From assembly GCF_014334135.1 (NCBI RefSeq), contig NZ_CP060497.1:2976001-3040000 (forward strand): DNA of 64,000 nucleotides. Direction: 5' to 3'. The notes beneath the pieces were generated by a model. It made no database searches. It had not been told where the DNA came from and saw only the letters and a list, made by a program, of their open reading frames with translations. The stretch comes from Olivibacter sp. SDN3 (GTDB taxonomy: Bacteria; Bacteroidota; Bacteroidia; Sphingobacteriales; Sphingobacteriaceae). How positions within the stretch are numbered: position 1 is the first letter of the stretch; each line of letters opens with the position of its first letter. The position numbers were made by a program, and so were the translations under genes. Below, one piece after another: positions 7,687 through 42,050 of the stretch.

Positions 7687-10600
7687 ATGAATACAAATCC
7701 AATGAATTTACGCCAAGTATTTGTGGGGCACAAGTATACTTGGATACTACTATTGCTGCTGGGTAATTTGCTATTGTTCGATAGAGCTTTTGCGCAAAAT
7801 GAACGAGCGATTACTGGAAAAGTAACTGCCATTTCTGGAGAAAGTTTAGCGAGCGTAAGTGTGCGGGTAAAAAGTACGAATACGGTTACGTCTACAGATA
7901 CAGACGGTAACTTTAAGCTGCTTGTTCCCATGGTGGGAGGGATTTTGGAATTTAGTTCTGTTGGTTTTCTTACACGAGAAATTACAATTGGAGACCAAAC
8001 CGTTTTAACAGTTACCTTACAGGAAGATATCAGCGCACTGGATGAGGTGGTGGTAGTGGGCTACGGAACACAGAAAAAGGCAAACCTCACGGGTTCTGTG
8101 GGAGCGGTATCGGGAGAAATCTTAACACAGCGGCCTGCGCCGAATGCGGCAAATTTGCTGCAAGGGCGTGTTACAGGGGTTCAGGTGACGCAACCTTCGG
8201 GCGAGCCAGGGAGGGATAATCCCAACTTTTTAATTAGGGGTAGGAGTACTTTTGGTGGAAGTACGGCACCGTTAGTGCTTATAGATGGTGTTACAGGTTC
8301 GTTCAATAATCTTTCTCCCAATGATATAGAAAATGTAACGGTATTAAAAGACGCGGCATCGGCGGCAATCTACGGTGCCAGAGCAGCAAACGGAGTGGTT
8401 CTGGTTACTACTAAGAAAGGCAGAAGTGGTAAAGCAGTTTTTAATTATCATGCCAATGTGGCACGGCATTCCCCAACCGCACTGCCGGATTTAATTACCA
8501 ACTCTGCGGAATATATGGAGCTGTATAACCAAGCGGCGGCAAGATCGGGAGTAGCATTTCGTTACCCGGAAGGAGAGATAGAGAAATACAGAAATGCAAC
8601 TGATCGTAATCAATATCCAAATTTTGATAACGTCGACTACTATATCAACCCGGCCACGGTAACCAATCATAATCTATCAGTATCAGGAGGGGGAGAACGG
8701 AATACTTTTAATGCCTCGCTAAGTTATCTCGATCAACGGGCAATGATCAAGGGATACAATTTTAAACGCTATAACGGCTTGCTGAACTATACCAATGAAT
8801 TAAGTAAAGCAATCACGGTGGGGACTATAATGAATATGACCTATAAAGACCGACAGGAACCACCCTTTACGGGAGAGAATATGGCGCTTGCCATTTATGC
8901 TGCAGGACCACTTTACGGTCCTTTTTTGCCTGATGGTAGCGGAAGAATTGTTTCTCGGGCCTATCAGCAGGAAGGAAGGAACCGTAACCCTCAGGAGTAC
9001 TATGCTATGGGAGAGCAAAATACCAAAGAATATAATTTAAATGCACAGGCATTTATTGATATAAGACTCTTTAAAGGGTTTACCTGGACATCTAAAGTGG
9101 CAATTAATTATATTGATGAGTATTATAAAATGTATCAGAAGGATTATGACGCTTTTCTTTTTCAGAAAGATCCTTCGACAGATACCTATATAAGAGACAC
9201 CTTTGGACCCGATATCCTAGGGGTAACCGACCAATATTCGAAAGTATTGAATCCTACGGTGTATTCGACGCTGACTTATGATGCACAAATTGAAGATCAT
9301 ACCTTCAGGGTCTTAGCGGGATATGAACAGATTTTCTATAAAAATCAGAACTTAAGGGGGAGAAGGATCAATACTGTTGCTCCCGTCTTAACGGATCTCA
9401 CAGGTTACATGCCCGATGGGGAGTCGCTCTATTTTACACATCCCCGTTTACCCTCATTGGCAGGGCCATCCGAATGGGCCATGCAATCTTTCTTTGGTCG
9501 CCTGAATTACGATTACAAAGGGATTTATCTGCTGGAAGCAAACTTACGATACGATGGTACCTCAAAAGTATCGCCCGCCTATCGCTGGGGGCTATTCCCG
9601 TCAGTTTCGGCAGGATGGTTACTATCGAAAGAAAATTTTCTTGAGAACCAGTCCAATTGGTTGAGTGAGCTAAAGTTCAGGGGGTCTTATGGAACTTTAG
9701 GAAATCAGGATGTTGGAACGTATTTGTATCAGGATAATCTGGTAATCGGCAGTATTTACTATCCTTTTGGGAATGCAGATTTACAACAAGGTGCGGTGAA
9801 CGATGTTTTCCGCGATCAGCGTATACGCTGGGAATCATCTAGGGTACTCGATTTTGGCTTCGACCTAAACGTAAAAAACGGTCTGTTAGGCATTACATTT
9901 GACTGGTTCAGACGTTCGGCATTTAATATTTTGGCGGCTCCTTCCGTTCCGGCGAGCTTAGGAGTTCCTTCACAGACCATCAATAATGGTAAGATGCGTA
10001 GTCAGGGAATAGAACTCGAACTAACTCATCAGCATCGTATCGGTGAAGTATCTTATGGAGCTAACTTCCAGATCTCTACTGCTAGAAACAAAGTGATTGA
10101 TATCCAGATTCCTTTTAGAGGTTCTACCATCCAAGAAATTGGTCTTCCTTACAATGAGCATTTCCTTTACGAATGGGATGGCATTTTTCAGGAAGAAGAT
10201 ATCGGAAATCCGGCAGTGCCAAGACATGAACTGAATCCGAATCCGCGGGCGGGTGATTTAAAGATGAAAGATAAAAATGGTGATGGCGTGGTGAACGCTG
10301 ATGACCGGATTGTAGTAAAAGGTGCTTATCCCGATTATATCTATTCATTTGGCTTTAATGTGGGATATAAAGGTTTTAGTTTACATGCATTTTTTCAGGG
10401 AGTGGAAGGTCTTAAGGCCAGAGTAAATAATTGGGGTGTCGATCCATTTATGCAAGGAACTGCTCCTACCTCGAAATGGAGGGATGCCTGGACGCCGGAG
10501 AATAGGAGTAATACCTTGCCGGCTATTTATATAGCAGGGTATTCTGGCGTTGCAAACTATGGTTCTTCTACTTATTATTTGCAAGATGCCTCTTACCTAC

Positions 10601-10812
10601 GATTAAAGAATGTGATGTTATCCTACAACTTCCCTGAGCACGTCGTTTCTAAACTAAAGATGCAAGGGCTGGGATTATACTTTTCGGCAGATAATCTCTT
10701 TACAATCACCGATTACGAAGGCGGAGACCCGGAAAGAACAAGTGTCAGCGGGAATTTCGCGCAGTATCCACAAGCACGCATATTTAGTTTGGGAATGAAT
10801 GTAAAATTTTAA
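7687..10812 (+). CDS. SusC/RagA family TonB-linked outer membrane protein
   Basis: 1041 residues. Signal peptide ends at FAQN. Residues ~40-115 are a CarboxypepD-regulatory-like domain (ITGKVTAISGESLASVSV), followed by the TonB-box region DEVVVVGYG, then the plug (NAANLLQGRVTGVQV; ASAAIYGARAANGVVLVTTKKG) and the 22-strand barrel ending in an aromatic C-terminal strand, FSLGMNVKF. SusC proteins import oligosaccharides across the outer membrane, powered by TonB, together with the SusD lid encoded 11 bases downstream. This pair heads an operon with GH2, GH106 and GH127 genes, so the substrate is probably a rhamnose, galactose and arabinose-containing oligosaccharide. Confidence 0.95.
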   Translation: MNTNPMNLRQVFVGHKYTWILLLLLGNLLLFDRAFAQNERAITGKVTAISGESLASVSVRVKSTNTVTSTDTDGNFKLLVPMVGGILEFSSVGFLTREITIGDQTVLTVTLQEDISALDEVVVVGYGTQKKANLTGSVGAVSGEILTQRPAPNAANLLQGRVTGVQVTQPSGEPGRDNPNFLIRGRSTFGGSTAPLVLIDGVTGSFNNLSPNDIENVTVLKDAASAAIYGARAANGVVLVTTKKGRSGKAVFNYHANVARHSPTALPDLITNSAEYMELYNQAAARSGVAFRYPEGEIEKYRNATDRNQYPNFDNVDYYINPATVTNHNLSVSGGGERNTFNASLSYLDQRAMIKGYNFKRYNGLLNYTNELSKAITVGTIMNMTYKDRQEPPFTGENMALAIYAAGPLYGPFLPDGSGRIVSRAYQQEGRNRNPQEYYAMGEQNTKEYNLNAQAFIDIRLFKGFTWTSKVAINYIDEYYKMYQKDYDAFLFQKDPSTDTYIRDTFGPDILGVTDQYSKVLNPTVYSTLTYDAQIEDHTFRVLAGYEQIFYKNQNLRGRRINTVAPVLTDLTGYMPDGESLYFTHPRLPSLAGPSEWAMQSFFGRLNYDYKGIYLLEANLRYDGTSKVSPAYRWGLFPSVSAGWLLSKENFLENQSNWLSELKFRGSYGTLGNQDVGTYLYQDNLVIGSIYYPFGNADLQQGAVNDVFRDQRIRWESSRVLDFGFDLNVKNGLLGITFDWFRRSAFNILAAPSVPASLGVPSQTINNGKMRSQGIELELTHQHRIGEVSYGANFQISTARNKVIDIQIPFRGSTIQEIGLPYNEHFLYEWDGIFQEEDIGNPAVPRHELNPNPRAGDLKMKDKNGDGVVNADDRIVVKGAYPDYIYSFGFNVGYKGFSLHAFFQGVEGLKARVNNWGVDPFMQGTAPTSKWRDAWTPENRSNTLPAIYIAGYSGVANYGSSTYYLQDASYLRLKNVMLSYNFPEHVVSKLKMQGLGLYFSADNLFTITDYEGGDPERTSVSGNFAQYPQARIFSLGMNVKF

Positions 10813-33911: not shown

Positions 33912-35813
33912 ATGCCTAAATGTAATGCTTACACAAGCGTCATTTTAATAGTAACAATGCTACTGTGTTCCGTATGGAAGGTACGAGGGCAGCAGCCAGT
34001 TGTTTTAACAGATAGCGTCGAGCAACATATGTTTACCTTTGGAGAACTTCGATCTCTTAAAGATGAACGAGGAATGCTTAGTTTTAAGGATGTTTTACAG
34101 CCTGAAATGGCTGCGCGTTTTCAGCTAAATGATAGGAGCACTCCACAGAACGAGGATATTCACGCATACTATTGGTACAAAATAACGATCGACCACCATA
34201 TTAGCCCAGAAAAATTATTTGTTTTAGAGTTTTTTGATCAGACAATAGACGAGATCGAAGCTTATTTACCCAATAATGCCGGAGGTTTTGATACATTGGT
34301 CTTAGGCGATAATTATGCTTTTTCCAAAAGGCCGTTTTTACATAAAAACTTTGTAATACCACTTTATCAGGACTTAAAAGGACAACAGGATTATTACTTC
34401 AGAATTCAATCCCGACAGCTGGTTGACGCCATTATCGTAGTACGTTCAATAGATTTTTTTGTTGAGTATGCGCTGGGGGAGTATTTCAGTTTTGGTATAT
34501 TTTATGGAATGATTCTGGTGTTTTCATTCTATAACCTGATCATGTTCTTCGCGGTGAAGCAGCGGGCATATCTTTACTATGTCTGTTATATGTTATGTGT
34601 TGCACTTTTTGAAATGTGCACCGATGGCATCGCCTATCACTATTTATGGCCTAACTGGTCAGCATGGAATCAATATGCTTTTGGCGTGGTACTTTGTTTA
34701 ATGAGTGTGTCGGCGTTACTCTTTACGCAGCGTCTACTGTTATTGCAACGTAAAGCACCAAAGTTAAACACCATTATTTCAGTAATTATTGGACTCCGTA
34801 TCTTATACTTGCTGTACGCATTGTTATGGCATAGAAGTTTATTGAATTATAAATTCATGGAGGCAATCCCGTTGTTAATGGCGTTTGGCTCGGGAATTTA
34901 TATCTGGTGGAGAGGGTATAGACCTGCACGTTATTTTGTCATTGGTTATGGATTTTTATTCATTGGCTATAGCATAAAATTGATGATTATGTTAGGGTTC
35001 ACCTGGCTGAATTTTGGGATCGTTTCTTATTACTGCATGAGTTTTTGTTTTATACTCGAAATGACTTTCCTTTCTTTAGCTGTGGGAGACCGGGTGCGCG
35101 TCATGAAAAATAGTAGAGATAAAGCGCAGCAATTGACCATTAAACAGATGCAGATCAATCAGGAACTTAAAGACAGTATAAATAAGGATTTAGAACAAAA
35201 AGTGAAAGAGCGAACCAGCGAGTTGGTGGAAAAATCGCATATTATTTCAGAGCAAAACCTCGCGCTGTCAGCAGCTAATAGGCTTCTTGAAGAACAAAAG
35301 AATGAAATAACTCGGATGAATGCGTTGTTAAATAAAGACAACGCATTGTTGAAGGTAAATGTAGAAGAAGTTACACGTGCCAGAGCATTGTCTAAGGGAT
35401 TGGATTTTGAAGAATTCAGTAAAGCTTATCCCGATCAGGAAAGTTGCTTACGATTTTTAGCAGGTCTCAAATGGAAGAATGGATACTGCTGTAGAAAATG
35501 TGCTGCTACGGCGTTCTACATCGGACACTTACCACATAGTAGGCGCTGTGCCCATTGTGGTTATGAAGAATCTGCTACTGCCCACACTGTTTTGCAACAT
35601 GTACGTATCCCCATTAATAAATCTTTTTATTTGATTTATCTCCTGTATTCCACCAAAGGTAGAATATCCTCCCACAAATTGGCCGAAGTTTTAGGTATTA
35701 GGCAAAGCACTTGCTGGGCTTATAGTAAAAAAATAAAACAACAGATGGAGCAAAAGAAAATGACTTTTCGAAATGCTTCGGAAACACAGGGGTGGAGCGA
35801 ATTGCTCGTTTGA
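33912..35813 (+). CDS. 7TM-DISM membrane sensor fused to an IS1595-type transposase zinc ribbon
   Basis: 633 residues from the ATG at 33912; a TTG at 33870 with AAAGGAA upstream is an alternative that adds 14 residues. Order: signal peptide (VRGQQ), periplasmic 7TMR-DISMED2-like domain (~25-165), seven membrane helices (~180-375) of the 7TMR-DISM type, a long coiled coil (~385-500) with the linker DLEQKVKERTSELVEKS that usually precedes histidine kinase or cyclase domains, and then, instead, a Zn_Tnp_IS1595-like domain (~515-615): LRFLAGLKWKNGYCCRKC, RRCAHCGYEESATAHTVLQ, then SSHKLAEVLGIRQSTCWAYSKKI as the helix-turn-helix-like end. Two CxxC pairs would bind zinc. No catalytic DDE domain is present. 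Probably a membrane-bound one-component DNA-binding regulator of the following SusCD/GH30 genes; that role is inference. Confidence 0.82.
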   Translation: MPKCNAYTSVILIVTMLLCSVWKVRGQQPVVLTDSVEQHMFTFGELRSLKDERGMLSFKDVLQPEMAARFQLNDRSTPQNEDIHAYYWYKITIDHHISPEKLFVLEFFDQTIDEIEAYLPNNAGGFDTLVLGDNYAFSKRPFLHKNFVIPLYQDLKGQQDYYFRIQSRQLVDAIIVVRSIDFFVEYALGEYFSFGIFYGMILVFSFYNLIMFFAVKQRAYLYYVCYMLCVALFEMCTDGIAYHYLWPNWSAWNQYAFGVVLCLMSVSALLFTQRLLLLQRKAPKLNTIISVIIGLRILYLLYALLWHRSLLNYKFMEAIPLLMAFGSGIYIWWRGYRPARYFVIGYGFLFIGYSIKLMIMLGFTWLNFGIVSYYCMSFCFILEMTFLSLAVGDRVRVMKNSRDKAQQLTIKQMQINQELKDSINKDLEQKVKERTSELVEKSHIISEQNLALSAANRLLEEQKNEITRMNALLNKDNALLKVNVEEVTRARALSKGLDFEEFSKAYPDQESCLRFLAGLKWKNGYCCRKCAATAFYIGHLPHSRRCAHCGYEESATAHTVLQHVRIPINKSFYLIYLLYSTKGRISSHKLAEVLGIRQSTCWAYSKKIKQQMEQKKMTFRNASETQGWSELLV

Positions 35814-36122
35814 CCTGGAGGTATCGCAATTTTCTTTTCTGGGTTTTGTAAAAAATGCTATGGTAAAGAAGCGTATCATGGTGTCTGTTTTACACACTTT
35901 GCTTCTGAATACATAAATACCTGATAAACAACTAAAGAATACCTTTCATTATTTCGGTGTTAAAGCGTATCAATATGTATATAAACATCTAATTGTCAGT
36001 ATTTTATGTATAATAATGTTTGTTTTTAACTAGCTTTCTTCTCTATATTTGCTGCCGGTATGCTATTGGTTGGAATACCGGGCTAACAACATTTATATTC
36101 ATTAAACCAATTTTATTAAACT
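35814..36122. other. 309-base intergenic region before susC
   Basis: No gene seen. AT-rich; holds the susC promoter at 36019-36051 and may hold the binding site of the upstream membrane regulator. Confidence 0.6.
36019..36051 (+). promoter_or_regulatory. Promoter of the second susCD locus
   Basis: TTTG (36019-36022), a 21-base spacer and TATATTTG (36044-36051), a complete match to the Bacteroidota consensus. Gives a leader of about 65 bases before the susC ATG at 36123. Confidence 0.6.
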
Positions 36123-39071
36123 ATGTGGAGGAAATATTTACTACTGATTTCCCTTGTTTTCGTTACCGCTATTGCTTATAGCCAGCAGTCAGCTATAAGA
36201 GGCATCGTGAAAGATGATGCCGGGGAAGTCCTGCCAGGCGTATCCGTCCGAGTGAAAGGCTCAAGCACAGGTGTTACGACGGATGGAGATGGGCAGTTTA
36301 ATTTGCAGGTTGCTCCCGATGCGATTTTGGTTTTTACTTATGTAGGTTACGTAAGTAGAGAGGAAGCGGTCACGGGGAGGAACGATTTTGAAATAGTGCT
36401 AGAATCACTTGATCAGGAATTAGATGAGGTGGTCGTAGTTGGTTATGGCACGCAGCGAAGGGGGGATATCACCGGTGCGGTGGGATTAGTAACCGAGGAA
36501 GCGTTTGAGTCACGACCGAATACCCAATTCGGTAGTATTATACAGGGGAAGGCCGCTGGAGTACAAGTATCTTCACCAGGAGGAAAGCCCAATGCTGGAT
36601 TGAATATTCGTATCCGTGGTACGAGTTCCATTACCTCTAGCAGTGACCCATTGTACGTGGTGGACGGCGTGCCTATTGCCGATACCCGTTCCATCAACCC
36701 GGCAGATATTGAGAGTATGTCAATCCTGAAAGATGCATCTTCTGCTGCCATCTATGGTGCACAGGGGGCCAATGGTGTGGTGTTGATTACTACCAAGAAA
36801 GGAAAGGAAGGTAAGCCTAGGGTTGAATTAAATGCTTATGGCGGTTTTTCATCTGTTTGGCGTCGATTAGATGTCCTGAATGCCGATCAGTATCGTCAAC
36901 TCATGACCGAGTTAGGTAGAAATACAGACTGGGATCAATACACAGCCAATACCAATTGGCAGGATGAGGTATTTCAAAATGGTGCGTCACAGAACTATCA
37001 GTTAGCTGTCTCAGGAAAGAGCAACAAAACCACTTATTATATTTCGGGTGGATGGATGAAACAGAAAGGAGCCGTTCGCAGTTCCGAGACAGATCGTTAC
37101 AATTTCAAAGTAAATCTTGAGCAAGAGGTGAACAACTGGTTAACTTTAGGGACTAATGTTGGCTATACCCGATACCATGATGTAGACGTTGCGGATAACC
37201 AAGCGGTTAATCAAGGCGGAGTAATTATGGGGATACTATCAACGCCACAAAATATCGGCATCTATAATGCTAACGGTACATTTACAAGCAATCCTTTTCA
37301 AGATTGGGAGAACCCACTGGCCTTTACAGATGGCTCAGATCGGGGATACCGCAATCAACGGGTTATTGGTAATGCTTATGCAGAAGTTACTTTCCTCCCC
37401 GGATTGAAATTCAGGAGCAACTTCGGTATCGATGCAGGTAACGGGGTGTACGATTATTTTCTGGACCCCATACGTACCAGTTACGGAAGGGCTAGAAATG
37501 GTATCGGTCGCTATAACACAGACCAGATGAGTTACTGGATTGCAGATAATACCCTCTCTTATAACAAACAAGTGGATAAACACAATTTTGGGGCTTTGGT
37601 TGGAATGGTGGCGCAAAAAACACAGTGGGAAAACAGTGAGATCGAGCGCACTAATTTCTCTGGCACATCAATCGTTACACCAAATGGTGGCTCCATTATC
37701 CAGGTTGCGAATGTGGCGAAAAGGGAAAAGGCCAATGCATCCATTATCGGAAGGATAAATTATGATTTTGAAGGAAAGTATTTATTAACGGCGAATTTTA
37801 GGGCAGATAACAGTTCCAACTTCGGACCTTCCAACAAGTGGGGCTATTTTCCTTCATTTTCTGCCGGGTGGCGCTTATCGCAGGAGCGTTTTCTGCAGCA
37901 TGTTTCTTGGCTGGATGACTTAAAACTGCGTGCCGGGTGGGGAGTTGTAGGAAATGATAACGTAGGAGAATACGCTTATTGGGGAAGGGTGGCCAGTGAT
38001 GCTAATTACCCTATCGGAGGAGAGATCTTACCGGGAACGCGTCCTTCTACTTTACAGAATGATGATTTAAAATGGGAAGAAACGCAGCAAACGAATATCG
38101 GTATTGATGTAAGTGTTTTCAATGCAAGACTTAATTTCAGTGTAGATGCCTATCTGAAAAAGACAAATGACTTATTGTTAAATGTTCCTGTTCCGCGCTC
38201 CACAGGCTTTGATGTGGCACTGCAGAATGCCGGTGCATTAGAAAATAAAGGATTGGAGTTTCAGGTAAATTCCAGAAACTTTGTCAACGACTTTAAATGG
38301 GAAACAGATTTTAATATTTCCTTTAATCGCAATAAGGTAACCGAATTGGGCGGAATCAATATTTTTGGAGCCAATATATCCGGCAGAGACGAAGTGAGCT
38401 ATACAACGATCGGCCAACCGATAGGCATGTTTTATGGTTATGTTTTTAACGGTGTTGATCCGCAAACGGGTGATGCCCTATATTTGACAAACGATGGTAC
38501 TTCGAGCAGTTCACCTTCTGCGTCCGACCGCCGGATCATTGGTAACCCAAACCCGAATTTCATTTATGGCTTGACCAATACTTTTTCCTATAAGAATATC
38601 GGCTTAAGTATCTTTTTACAGGGAAGCCAAGGGAATGATATTTACAATGGTACTCGCGTAGAGGCCGAGGGTATGATCGATGCCAAGAATCAGACGGCGG
38701 CTGTTTTGGATAGGTGGACAAGTATTGGGCAAGAAACACAGATTCCACGGGCAGTGGCCGATAACATCGCGAATTCAAGAAATTCCACGCGCTTTGTAGA
38801 AAACGGTTCTTACCTCCGCGTAAAGTCGGCTACCCTGAGTTATAACTTGCCTGAACAGTTTTTAAATAAGATTAAGATAAGTAATGTACGTTTGTATGTC
38901 ACTGGAGAAAACCTTTTCACGATAACCGATTATAAAGGTTTTGATCCAGAGGTAAACGCATTTACCAATGTGAACGACGCTACGCAAAGTAAGAACACTT
39001 TTATAGGTATCGATTATGGTACCTATCCACAGACCCGAAACATCATTTTTGGACTTAATGTTTCATTTTAA
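36123..39071 (+). CDS. SusC/RagA family TonB-linked outer membrane protein
   Basis: 982 residues with signal peptide ending AIAYSQQ. CarboxypepD-regulatory-like domain (IRGIVKDDAGEVLPGVSV) at ~25-95, DEVVVVGYGTQRRGDITGAV, plug segments FGSIIQGKAAGVQV and ASSAAIYGAQGANGVVLIT, and a barrel ending NIIFGLNVSF. Partner SusD follows after 11 bases and a GH30 enzyme after that, so it likely imports beta-glucan-type oligosaccharides. It is a separate paralogue from the one at 7687. Confidence 0.95.
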   Translation: MWRKYLLLISLVFVTAIAYSQQSAIRGIVKDDAGEVLPGVSVRVKGSSTGVTTDGDGQFNLQVAPDAILVFTYVGYVSREEAVTGRNDFEIVLESLDQELDEVVVVGYGTQRRGDITGAVGLVTEEAFESRPNTQFGSIIQGKAAGVQVSSPGGKPNAGLNIRIRGTSSITSSSDPLYVVDGVPIADTRSINPADIESMSILKDASSAAIYGAQGANGVVLITTKKGKEGKPRVELNAYGGFSSVWRRLDVLNADQYRQLMTELGRNTDWDQYTANTNWQDEVFQNGASQNYQLAVSGKSNKTTYYISGGWMKQKGAVRSSETDRYNFKVNLEQEVNNWLTLGTNVGYTRYHDVDVADNQAVNQGGVIMGILSTPQNIGIYNANGTFTSNPFQDWENPLAFTDGSDRGYRNQRVIGNAYAEVTFLPGLKFRSNFGIDAGNGVYDYFLDPIRTSYGRARNGIGRYNTDQMSYWIADNTLSYNKQVDKHNFGALVGMVAQKTQWENSEIERTNFSGTSIVTPNGGSIIQVANVAKREKANASIIGRINYDFEGKYLLTANFRADNSSNFGPSNKWGYFPSFSAGWRLSQERFLQHVSWLDDLKLRAGWGVVGNDNVGEYAYWGRVASDANYPIGGEILPGTRPSTLQNDDLKWEETQQTNIGIDVSVFNARLNFSVDAYLKKTNDLLLNVPVPRSTGFDVALQNAGALENKGLEFQVNSRNFVNDFKWETDFNISFNRNKVTELGGINIFGANISGRDEVSYTTIGQPIGMFYGYVFNGVDPQTGDALYLTNDGTSSSSPSASDRRIIGNPNPNFIYGLTNTFSYKNIGLSIFLQGSQGNDIYNGTRVEAEGMIDAKNQTAAVLDRWTSIGQETQIPRAVADNIANSRNSTRFVENGSYLRVKSATLSYNLPEQFLNKIKISNVRLYVTGENLFTITDYKGFDPEVNAFTNVNDATQSKNTFIGIDYGTYPQTRNIIFGLNVSF

Positions 39072-39082
39072 GGATTTGATTT

Positions 39083-40564
39083 ATGAAAGCTAAATATATT
39101 GCCCTATTCGTGACAGTAACGGGGATCACTTCTGGGTTAACATCATGTAATAAGTTTACCGATTTAAATCCCATTTCGGAAGCTACCTCTGGAAATGCAT
39201 ATACCAGCCTTCAAGAAGCAGAAGCTGCATTAACAGGAGCGTACGATGCACTACAGCAAGAATATTATATTTGGGATAATGTGATTTTTAGTGATGTTAT
39301 GGCCGATAATTATTATGCAGGAGGAGATGATCCGGAGATCTTTGCGGTAGACAGGTTACAGTTGGTTCCTACCAATGGCCGACTATTCAACAATTGGAGC
39401 CAGCTTTACGTAGGTGTTCTTCGTGCCAATACGATATTACAAGAAGTGCCTGTTATCGATGATCCGAGCTTAGACGAGGGAGGCAGACGCGAGCAGATTT
39501 TGGGCGAAGCACTCTTTTTGCGCGCTAATCATTATTACAATCTGGTGAAAATGTTTGGGGGCGTTCCCCTGGTGCTGGAACCAGCAGCGTCTACCGCACC
39601 GGATGCCATACAACTTCCCAGGAATACGGAAGCTGAGGTATATCAACAGATCCTAGCAGATCTTGAACAGGCCGTTTCGTATTTGCCTGATCGCTTATCC
39701 GAAGAAAACAGCGTCAACAAGGCTAGAGCTACTAAAGGGGCCGCAAACGCACTCTTGGCAAAAGTATATGCACAAAAGGCAGATAGGGACTACGGTAAAG
39801 TACTCGAACATTGTGATGCGGTGATTAATAGTCCTGCCAATTATCGCTTATTAGCTAATTTCGCTGAACTGTTCGATGGGGCGCATTACAACAATGCAGA
39901 GTCTATTTTAGAAATACAGTTTGTTGGCGCTAACGAAGGGAATTGGGGGCCGCAGATGCTTCTTCCACCATCCATAAGTGGCGATACCTGGCGCAAGTTC
40001 ATTACGCCATCTACCGATCTGGTTGCCGCATTTGATCGTGCGTCGGACGAAACAAGAAAGTCGAGCAGTATACTCTTTGAAAATGTAGGCTGGTTGGATG
40101 AATACTGGGGAAATGCTTCGGGTTCGTCTGTCCCCTTCGCTTATAAATGGAAGAGTGCCAGCGGCTGGGCGAGCACTAATAGGCAATATATGCTGAGGTT
40201 AGCAGATATCATGTTGTTAAAAGCAGAAGCGCTCAATGAATTGGGTAGAGTTCCGGAAGCGCTGGAAGCGCTGAATCAGGTGCGTCAGCGTGTTGGATTA
40301 GCAGCGTCGACGGCGAGTGATCAAACAACGCTAAAATTGGCTATTCTCGAGGAACGGCGCTTAGAACTATGTCAGGAGGGGCAACGTTGGGACGACCTGA
40401 AACGAGCGGGATTAGCTATAGAGGTGATGAACGATCTACAGGAAATAGATTTACGTACGGGTAATGCGGTAGATTATAATATGACCGAAGAGAAGTTGTT
40501 GCTGCCTATTCCGCAGCAGGAAATCAATAGAAATCAACAACTGGATCAAAACCCGGGATACTAA
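39083..40564 (+). CDS. SusD/RagB family glycan-binding lipoprotein
   Basis: 493 residues. Lipoprotein signal with cysteine in GLTSCNKFTDLNP; helical TPR-like core (EAEAALTGAYDALQQEY; LGEALFLRANHYYNLVKMFGGVPLV) and the conserved ILEERRLELCQEGQRWDDLKRAG near the C-terminus, ending with INRNQQLDQNPGY. Works as the external lid of the SusC transporter encoded just upstream. Confidence 0.95.
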   Translation: MKAKYIALFVTVTGITSGLTSCNKFTDLNPISEATSGNAYTSLQEAEAALTGAYDALQQEYYIWDNVIFSDVMADNYYAGGDDPEIFAVDRLQLVPTNGRLFNNWSQLYVGVLRANTILQEVPVIDDPSLDEGGRREQILGEALFLRANHYYNLVKMFGGVPLVLEPAASTAPDAIQLPRNTEAEVYQQILADLEQAVSYLPDRLSEENSVNKARATKGAANALLAKVYAQKADRDYGKVLEHCDAVINSPANYRLLANFAELFDGAHYNNAESILEIQFVGANEGNWGPQMLLPPSISGDTWRKFITPSTDLVAAFDRASDETRKSSSILFENVGWLDEYWGNASGSSVPFAYKWKSASGWASTNRQYMLRLADIMLLKAEALNELGRVPEALEALNQVRQRVGLAASTASDQTTLKLAILEERRLELCQEGQRWDDLKRAGLAIEVMNDLQEIDLRTGNAVDYNMTEEKLLLPIPQQEINRNQQLDQNPGY

Positions 40565-40579
40565 CTTTACCATTTTATT

Positions 40580-40603
40580 GGCGGGAAGTAAAGGTTTCCC
40601 GCC
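40580..40603 (+). terminator. Hairpin between susD and GH30 gene
   Basis: Perfect 8-bp stem GGCGGGAA / TTCCCGCC with an 8-base loop, followed by only a mixed T stretch. Could be a weak terminator or an mRNA-stabilising hairpin lowering GH30 expression relative to susCD. Confidence 0.5.
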
Positions 40604-40631
40604 TTGTGTTTACTTTTAACCCTACAAACAA

Positions 40632-42050
40632 ATGCGATTTAATTTTTTCTTATTGATGCTGTTTGCCTTATTGAATATGGCTGCGTGCAATAACCCTTCA
40701 TCAGAATCTCCGGAAGAAGATAGTAAAGGTGTCGTTCCGTATTTAACAACTGGTGATCAAAAAGCGTTATTGGCTAGACAGCCTGCGTTAGCATTCGTTG
40801 AAAAGTCGAATGATTTACCCACGATTACTATAGACGATAACAAAGTTTATCAGGATATCGATGGTTTCGGTTTTACACTTACGGGAGGAAGTGCTGATTT
40901 AATTCAGGCATTGCCTGAAGACCAGCGTTCTGTACTTTTACGTGAGTTATTTGGAAGGGAAGAAAATAGCATAGGTATCAATTATCTGCGTGTAAGTATC
41001 GGTGCATCCGATCTCAGCGCATCTACTTTTTCATACAATGATTTACCGGCAGGACAGAAAGACCCAACCTTAAAACACTTTTCTATAGAAAAAGAGCGGG
41101 AGACGCTTATCCCGGTTCTAAAAGAGATTGTAAAAATCAATCCGAAGATTAAAATTTTGGGATCTCCTTGGAGTGCCCCCACATGGATGAAAACCAATAA
41201 CAATACGATTGGTGGAAAGTTAAGACCCGAATATTATGGGGTGTACGCAGATTATTTTGTGAAATATGTGCAAGCGATGGCCGATGAGGGTATCTCAATA
41301 GACGCCGTTACCATCCAGAATGAGCCTTTGCACCCAGGAAATAATCCTAGCATGTTGATGGAAGCTGTTGAGCAAGCCGACTTTATTAAAAGCGCTTTAG
41401 GGCCAGCTTTTAAAGAGGCCGGTATTACAACAAAAATCATTCTTTATGATCATAATGCCGATCGCCCAGATTATCCAATCAGCATTTTAAATGACGAGGA
41501 AGCAGCGAAATATATAGATGGGTCAGCTTTCCATTTATATGGTGGTCGTATTGAGGCGCTATCAGAGGTACACAAAGCACATCCGGAGAAGCAGCTGTAC
41601 TTTACTGAACAGTGGGTAGGAGGGCCTGGTGATTTCTCGAAAGAACTCCAATGGCATGTGTCTAACTTAATAATAGGGGCTACCAGAAATTGGTCTAGAA
41701 ATGTACTTGAATGGAATTTAGCAGCAACATCTGATTATAAACCCCATACGGATGGTGGATGTACCAGCTGTTTAGGCGCATTAAGCATTGATGGTGAAAA
41801 GATACAGCGTAACGTCGCTTACTATATCGTTGGGCACGCATCGAAATTTGTACCAGATGGGTCCAAAAGAATCGGATCTAATGTTATCGACGGGCTGGCT
41901 AATGTGGCCTTTATCACACCTGAAAATAAAAAGGTTTTGGTTATAGTAAATGATGACGATAAAAACAGATCTTTTAATATTGAGTATCACAATAAATATG
42001 TAGAGACAAGTTTGGCAAGTGGTGCCGTTATGACCTATATATGGGATTAG
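40632..42050 (+). CDS. GH30 family glycosidase lipoprotein
   Basis: 472 residues with lipoprotein signal NMAACNNPS. GH30 hallmarks: IDGFGFTLTGGSADLIQALP at the barrel start, YLRVSIGASDLSASTFSYND, KILGSPWSAPTWMKTN, the acid/base Glu in TIQNEPLHPG and the nucleophile Glu in LYFTEQWVGG. The barrel is wrapped by a beta-domain built from both termini (C-terminal NVAFITPENKKVLVIVNDDD). Family activities include beta-glucosylceramidase, beta-1,6-glucanase and beta-xylosidase; linked to a SusCD pair, a beta-1,6-glucan (for example fungal wall) is the most likely target, but this is inference. Confidence 0.9.
   Translation: MRFNFFLLMLFALLNMAACNNPSSESPEEDSKGVVPYLTTGDQKALLARQPALAFVEKSNDLPTITIDDNKVYQDIDGFGFTLTGGSADLIQALPEDQRSVLLRELFGREENSIGINYLRVSIGASDLSASTFSYNDLPAGQKDPTLKHFSIEKERETLIPVLKEIVKINPKIKILGSPWSAPTWMKTNNNTIGGKLRPEYYGVYADYFVKYVQAMADEGISIDAVTIQNEPLHPGNNPSMLMEAVEQADFIKSALGPAFKEAGITTKIILYDHNADRPDYPISILNDEEAAKYIDGSAFHLYGGRIEALSEVHKAHPEKQLYFTEQWVGGPGDFSKELQWHVSNLIIGATRNWSRNVLEWNLAATSDYKPHTDGGCTSCLGALSIDGEKIQRNVAYYIVGHASKFVPDGSKRIGSNVIDGLANVAFITPENKKVLVIVNDDDKNRSFNIEYHNKYVETSLASGAVMTYIWD

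Follow-up and report, generated by a model that had tools for sequence, protein, structure and literature searches.

We propose that the gene at 33912..35813 (forward strand) of the window, the whole 64,000-nucleotide stretch of Olivibacter sp. SDN3 DNA analysed here, encodes a membrane-embedded one-component regulator that binds paired boxes ahead of the adjacent SusCD/GH30 operon and activates susC. We give this reading a probability of about 0.85. To judge from sequence comparisons, a zinc ribbon and HTH of IS1595 type very probably control the neighbouring glycan-uptake genes through conserved paired sites, present here and across dozens of related species.

Architecture of the predicted regulator

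The open reading frame starts with ATG and encodes 633 amino acids. Pfam matches and an AlphaFold2 model divide the product, after a signal peptide, into a periplasmic DISMED2 domain that is the presumed sensor (residues 46-173; 34047..34430; 7TMR-DISMED2, 1.3e-25), a seven-helix 7TMR-DISM membrane region (residues 190-394; 34479..35093; 7TMR-DISM_7TM, 1e-44), a coiled-coil linker (residues 395-477; 35094..35342; AlphaFold2), an IS1595-type zinc ribbon (residues 507-551; 35430..35564) and an HTH (residues 568-614; 35613..35753; Pfam, alignment and AlphaFold2), all on the forward strand. The PF07695 7TM and DISMED extracellular domains score far over the Pfam cut-offs, as in 7TMR-DISM receptors. 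The model begins with a signal helix and a beta domain; after these come seven TM helices, a long helix, the ribbon and a three-helix HTH, and residues 369-477 form an unbroken helix that runs from TM7 into the coiled coil.

The match of the ribbon to PF12760 (Zn_ribbon_IS1595; 2.1e-5) is borderline: its 24.8 bits fall 0.6 bit short of the 25.4 cut-off, which orthologues exceed (L265, 31.9; L262, 25.8). All four cysteines of its two CxxC pairs are invariant in 46 close homologues, and so, within the recognition region, are R-Q and T-C. HTH matches in Pfam, at about residues 572-610, are weak. The NCBIfam model transpos_IS1595 (NF033547) is covered only at positions 2-54 of 215, at residues 564-615; because the match is limited to the first quarter of the model and the protein ends at residue 633, we conclude that the DDE nuclease is missing. 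Pfam gave no match to histidine kinase or receiver domains in the protein, unlike a hybrid two-component system, and a weak NarX match (NCBIfam, 16.6 bits versus 578) is confined to the coiled coil. Sensor, membrane span and a DNA-binding-type domain thus lie in one chain beside the presumed target, the arrangement of a membrane one-component SusCD regulator.

These results agree with the first-pass annotation, made from the letters alone, in its 7TM-DISM sensor, the coiled-coil linker typical of such receptors, the C-terminal IS1595-type ribbon with two CxxC pairs and the lack of a DDE nuclease. What it called a following helical segment is present and can be refined to an HTH with the conserved recognition region IRQSTCW, so that the DNA-binding unit comprises ribbon and HTH together.

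The isolated C-terminal part is modelled with pLDDT >90 over most of its core. Foldseek found no significant match for the DNA-binding domain in the PDB, and no solved structure related to it by sequence was found. Weak fold matches (homeodomain, Lrp/AsnC and TrpR, best Z 4.5; TFIIB ribbon) were set aside as evidence of ancestry.

Genomic neighbourhood

The SusCD/GH30 locus claimed by the first-pass annotation occupies 36123-42050 on the same strand. Its first gene, and the presumed first target, is susC (SusC/RagA; 36123..39071; TIGR04056, 1.2e-268), followed by susD (39083..40564; PF07980, 3.2e-35) and a GH30 gene (40632..42050; PF02055, 1.4e-47). The GH30 is a relative of the endo-1,6-beta-glucanase BT3312, whose NCBI model (NF053856, 3.8e-122) matches it over its whole length with a score under the cut-off.

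This arrangement recurs in the 80 best named matches, chosen by similarity to the query, of which 79 have readable loci. A same-strand SusC is the next gene in 63 of the 79, which places the regulator directly upstream of SusC-SusD-GH30, and a GH30 homologue is close by in all 79. These rates apply to the close clade, since the loci are those of the matches closest to the query. More distant members lie upstream of SusC with no GH30 in view (L262, L265, L266, L268 and L270) or upstream of other genes (L259-L261, L039 and L040).

The window also holds a separate glycan locus (4469-30225), with a rhamnosidase, SusCD, a GH2 beta-galactosidase, an MFS transporter, a GH106 rhamnosidase, GH127 and DUF5703, which looks like a pectin-type locus.

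A paired candidate operator upstream of susC

Alignment of the regulator-SusC gaps of five Olivibacter revealed two conserved islands. The full box is 17 bp long, with the consensus GGTAttnAAGCGTATCA; beyond its edges no position carries more than about 0.6 bit of information. Gap alignment and motif scan place candidate box 1, GGTAAAGAAGCGTATCA, at 35862..35878 and candidate box 2, GGTGTTAAAGCGTATCA, 94 bp further on at 35956..35972, both on the forward strand. The pattern GCGTATCA has just two sites in the 64-kb window, both within the 309-bp regulator-susC gap, and AGCGTATC is found in 49 of 64 gaps against 0.1 expected. Direct pairs, with both boxes reading the same way and a spacing of 90-94 bp (mode 92), are present in 63 of the 64 regulator-SusC gaps, that of the window included; in the one other gap, that of Olivibacter sitiensis (L110), the pair is degenerate, with a spacing of 94 bp. 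Shuffled gap sequences yielded no pairs. Across both strands of 1.93 Mb of related loci there are 73 pairs, all inside the regulator's own gene cluster. Recovery in the 64 gaps is by construction, as these gaps built the box model; the informative features are the constant spacing, the absence of pairs elsewhere and the GH30 loci outside model building.

Scanned with exact patterns only, the organism's own genome contains exactly one AAGCGTATCA core pair separated by 70-100 bp; the reversed pattern yields no such pair. Taken alone, the core occurs 31 times and the reversed pattern 10 times. Apart from the one pair, the core sites mostly fall within long open frames and never form pairs, so we claim no further targets. 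In one related locus (L134:16603, forward strand) a second pair lies inside the operon, upstream of an unlabelled gene of about 770 aa after SusD, possibly a second promoter under the same regulator.

The promoter placed at 36019 by the first-pass annotation has Bacteroidota-type elements that are conserved in the genus (36019..36051, forward strand): TTTG at 36019 and a TAtaTTTG element, TATATTTG, at 36044. A TAnnTTTG match lies downstream in 18 loci, and 12 of these place its start 80-82 bp from box 2 (81 in the window); if a locus had several, the match nearest to 83 bp was taken. The -33 element follows the start of box 2 by 56-63 bp, and the boxes are clear of the promoter.

Binding of the regulator to the paired boxes is strongly implied by these comparisons. 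By analogy with the receptor family, the DISMED2 and 7TM regions would sense an envelope signal and transmit it down the continuous TM7/coiled-coil helix, pairing or re-registering protomers. The cytoplasmic zinc ribbon and HTH would then bind the two 17-bp direct boxes; these should lie on the same face of the DNA, given that about 92 bp corresponds to roughly nine helical turns. Box 2 precedes the -7 element by 81 bp, and binding would activate susC, possibly by looping the DNA. Our best guess for the ligand is a glucan oligosaccharide, namely a 1,6-beta-glucan fragment, because of the type of GH30.

Looping and activation are suggested by the spacing and position of the boxes. The direction of control is not readable from sequence and repressors also use paired looped sites, so a regulator that binds the boxes and represses the operon until the signal arrives must be weighed. 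Arguing against this, the -33 element is some way downstream of the boxes, which do not overlap the promoter, and the SusR and hybrid two-component regulators known from SusCD loci are activators. We therefore regard repression as unlikely and favour activation of susC.

The box accompanies the output domain

Alternatively, the pair could serve another regulator as operator or be a feature of SusC promoters, with the protein acting otherwise, for example by protein-protein signalling. In favour of this, some family members are without the box. Several observations argue the other way, and we consider this alternative improbable, somewhat more so than repression. Where GH30 rather than SusC is the regulator's next gene, the pair lies upstream of GH30 (L155, L173, L175 and L183), as it does in L182 with one small ORF intervening. 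The other SusC of the window (7687-10812) has no pair.

Natural exchanges of domains point in the same direction. One genome (G034) carries a second protein in which Reg_prop repeats and Y_Y_Y are joined to the zinc ribbon and HTH (L032:13109-16381, reverse strand). This propeller sensor, a fusion seen in that genome only, is encoded 5 kb from the 7TM version, and its gene has CGTATYR boxes on either side, in pairs spaced by 79 and 78 bp. Conversely, a homologue in genome G005 (L045:7089-8813, forward strand) has the 7TM sensor, lies beside SusCD/GH16/GH30 and ends in a LuxR-type HTH (9e-5, just below the cut-off); no box is present at its locus. The G005 protein falls inside the zinc-ribbon clade of the sensor tree and is therefore probably an output replacement, likewise seen in one genome. 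Members with a changed recognition region (family f15, e.g. TNTVW) also lack the box. In these cases the box goes with the output domain.

Elsewhere in the family the site is less regular. Members of f29 have a single related box, clear in 2 of 3, and no recognisable box was found in f12, where the recognition region is conserved, in several Mucilaginibacter or in L039. Taken together, the conserved paired box and the natural swaps of output domain lend strong independent support to the earlier idea of a membrane-bound one-component regulator of the SusCD/GH30 locus built, in all probability, from a transposon part.

Relation to known regulators

SusCD loci are known to be controlled by SusR-type, hybrid two-component, ECF-sigma and AraC-like regulators, of which the SusR type works as a membrane one-component protein. 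The sensor and output domains of the SusR-type regulator BT3309 presumably differ from those described here. BT3309 belongs to the Bacteroides 1,6-beta-glucan locus, and the likeness lies in a regulator gene beside SusCD and a GH30 related to that of the window (PMC5481569). With 7TMR-DISM kinase receptors, homologues of which occur in the same genome and its relatives, the regulator shares DISMED2, the 7TM region and the coiled coil; it differs in having a DNA-binding domain as output, with no kinase or cyclase, and its sensor forms a separate clade. Proteins with the ChiS-family DNA-binding domain include a 7TMR-DISM receptor that ends in a DNA-binding domain, but these proteins are proteobacterial and use a different domain, a helix-sheet-helix variant of the HTH without a zinc ribbon (PMC8092284). 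As far as is known, then, the regulator works like a membrane regulator of the SusR or ChiS type, with the output domain of neither. A literature search, with most subscription papers outside its reach, returned no description of the fusion and no mention of PF12760; the zinc ribbon and HTH output, its paired box and its spread appear to be undescribed in the literature searched.

If our reading is correct, these proteins constitute a further class of SusCD regulator, common among soil and plant-associated Bacteroidota, whose predicted operator is sharply enough defined for regulon annotation. They would also illustrate clearly, in bacteria, how the DNA-binding domain of a transposase can become a membrane-anchored transcription factor, and the natural swaps would demonstrate modularity of the output with a defined, testable site.

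Distribution and probable origin from IS1595 transposases

A homologue of the regulator is present in approximately 166 of the 400 Sphingobacteriaceae genomes sampled (best E <1e-55). The strong matches listed in this search are frames of about 615-700 aa, the propeller fusion excepted, and the weaker ones are mostly short frames or transposases. Each of the four same-genus genomes searched encodes a full-length homologue (57-73% identity), as do genomes of many other genera, and members extend to Chitinophagaceae and Spirosomataceae. The first-pass annotation had named two outcomes as fatal to its reading, a C-terminal domain that does not match PF12760 and a chance fusion in one strain only; the ribbon does match, at a borderline score here and over the cut-off in some orthologues, and the fusion is kept across many genera. 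A chance joining of a receptor gene to an inserted piece of IS1595, devoid of function, for which the absence of a second PF12760 match from the own genome (6.12 Mb) might speak, is refuted by conservation: the same architecture and length over several families, invariant ribbon cysteines and a single clade.

In two genomes the regulator is duplicated in tandem within about 2 kb (G479:C127 and G488:C150). A stand-alone protein of 185 aa in genome G254 (L272:5888-6445, forward strand) consists of zinc ribbon and HTH and has neither sensor nor nuclease, and glycan-use genes and an opposite-strand frame for a 1358-aa protein lie nearby; comparable short frames (about 150-205 aa) occur in further f26 genomes.

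A tree of 84 DNA-binding domains, based on 110 columns only and with some long transposase branches and an assumed root, places all 67 regulators in a single clade (support 99/96) among the IS1595 transposases. The clade adjoins transposases such as L273 (joint-group support 100/86), which matches NF033547 at 5e-47 and has the related recognition region LRQKTCW. The propeller fusion branches next to the 7TM version encoded near it in G034. Like IS1595 transposases (PF12760, NF033547), among which their domains form a clade, the regulators have a zinc ribbon and then an HTH; they differ in lacking the DDE nuclease, in fusion to a receptor and in a fixed chromosomal place before an operon, with no terminal repeats found.

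One clade among transposases fits a single domestication, and the simplest reading of these sequences is one such event followed by local shuffling. We lean, with less confidence than for the regulator itself, towards a broader view in which one capture of an IS1595 domain founded a widespread set of membrane-tethered regulators in Bacteroidota, with an output exchangeable between 7TM-DISM and beta-propeller sensors and replaceable by a LuxR-type HTH, and with a paired operator of about 92-bp spacing that probably loops.

A possible descent of the box from an IS1595 end found no support in the ends examined: the box is not in the one clear terminal repeat, that of G404 (GGGAATTACCGGGTTAACTTGAC), or in the candidate ends of G011 and G156; definable ends were not obtained for the nearest transposases (G894, G214 and G1078). 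Genome G214 (L217-L222) carries nine divergent IS1595-like copies with VEILICELGV where VDE is usual. These copies seem to have lost the first catalytic aspartate and are perhaps another domesticated family.
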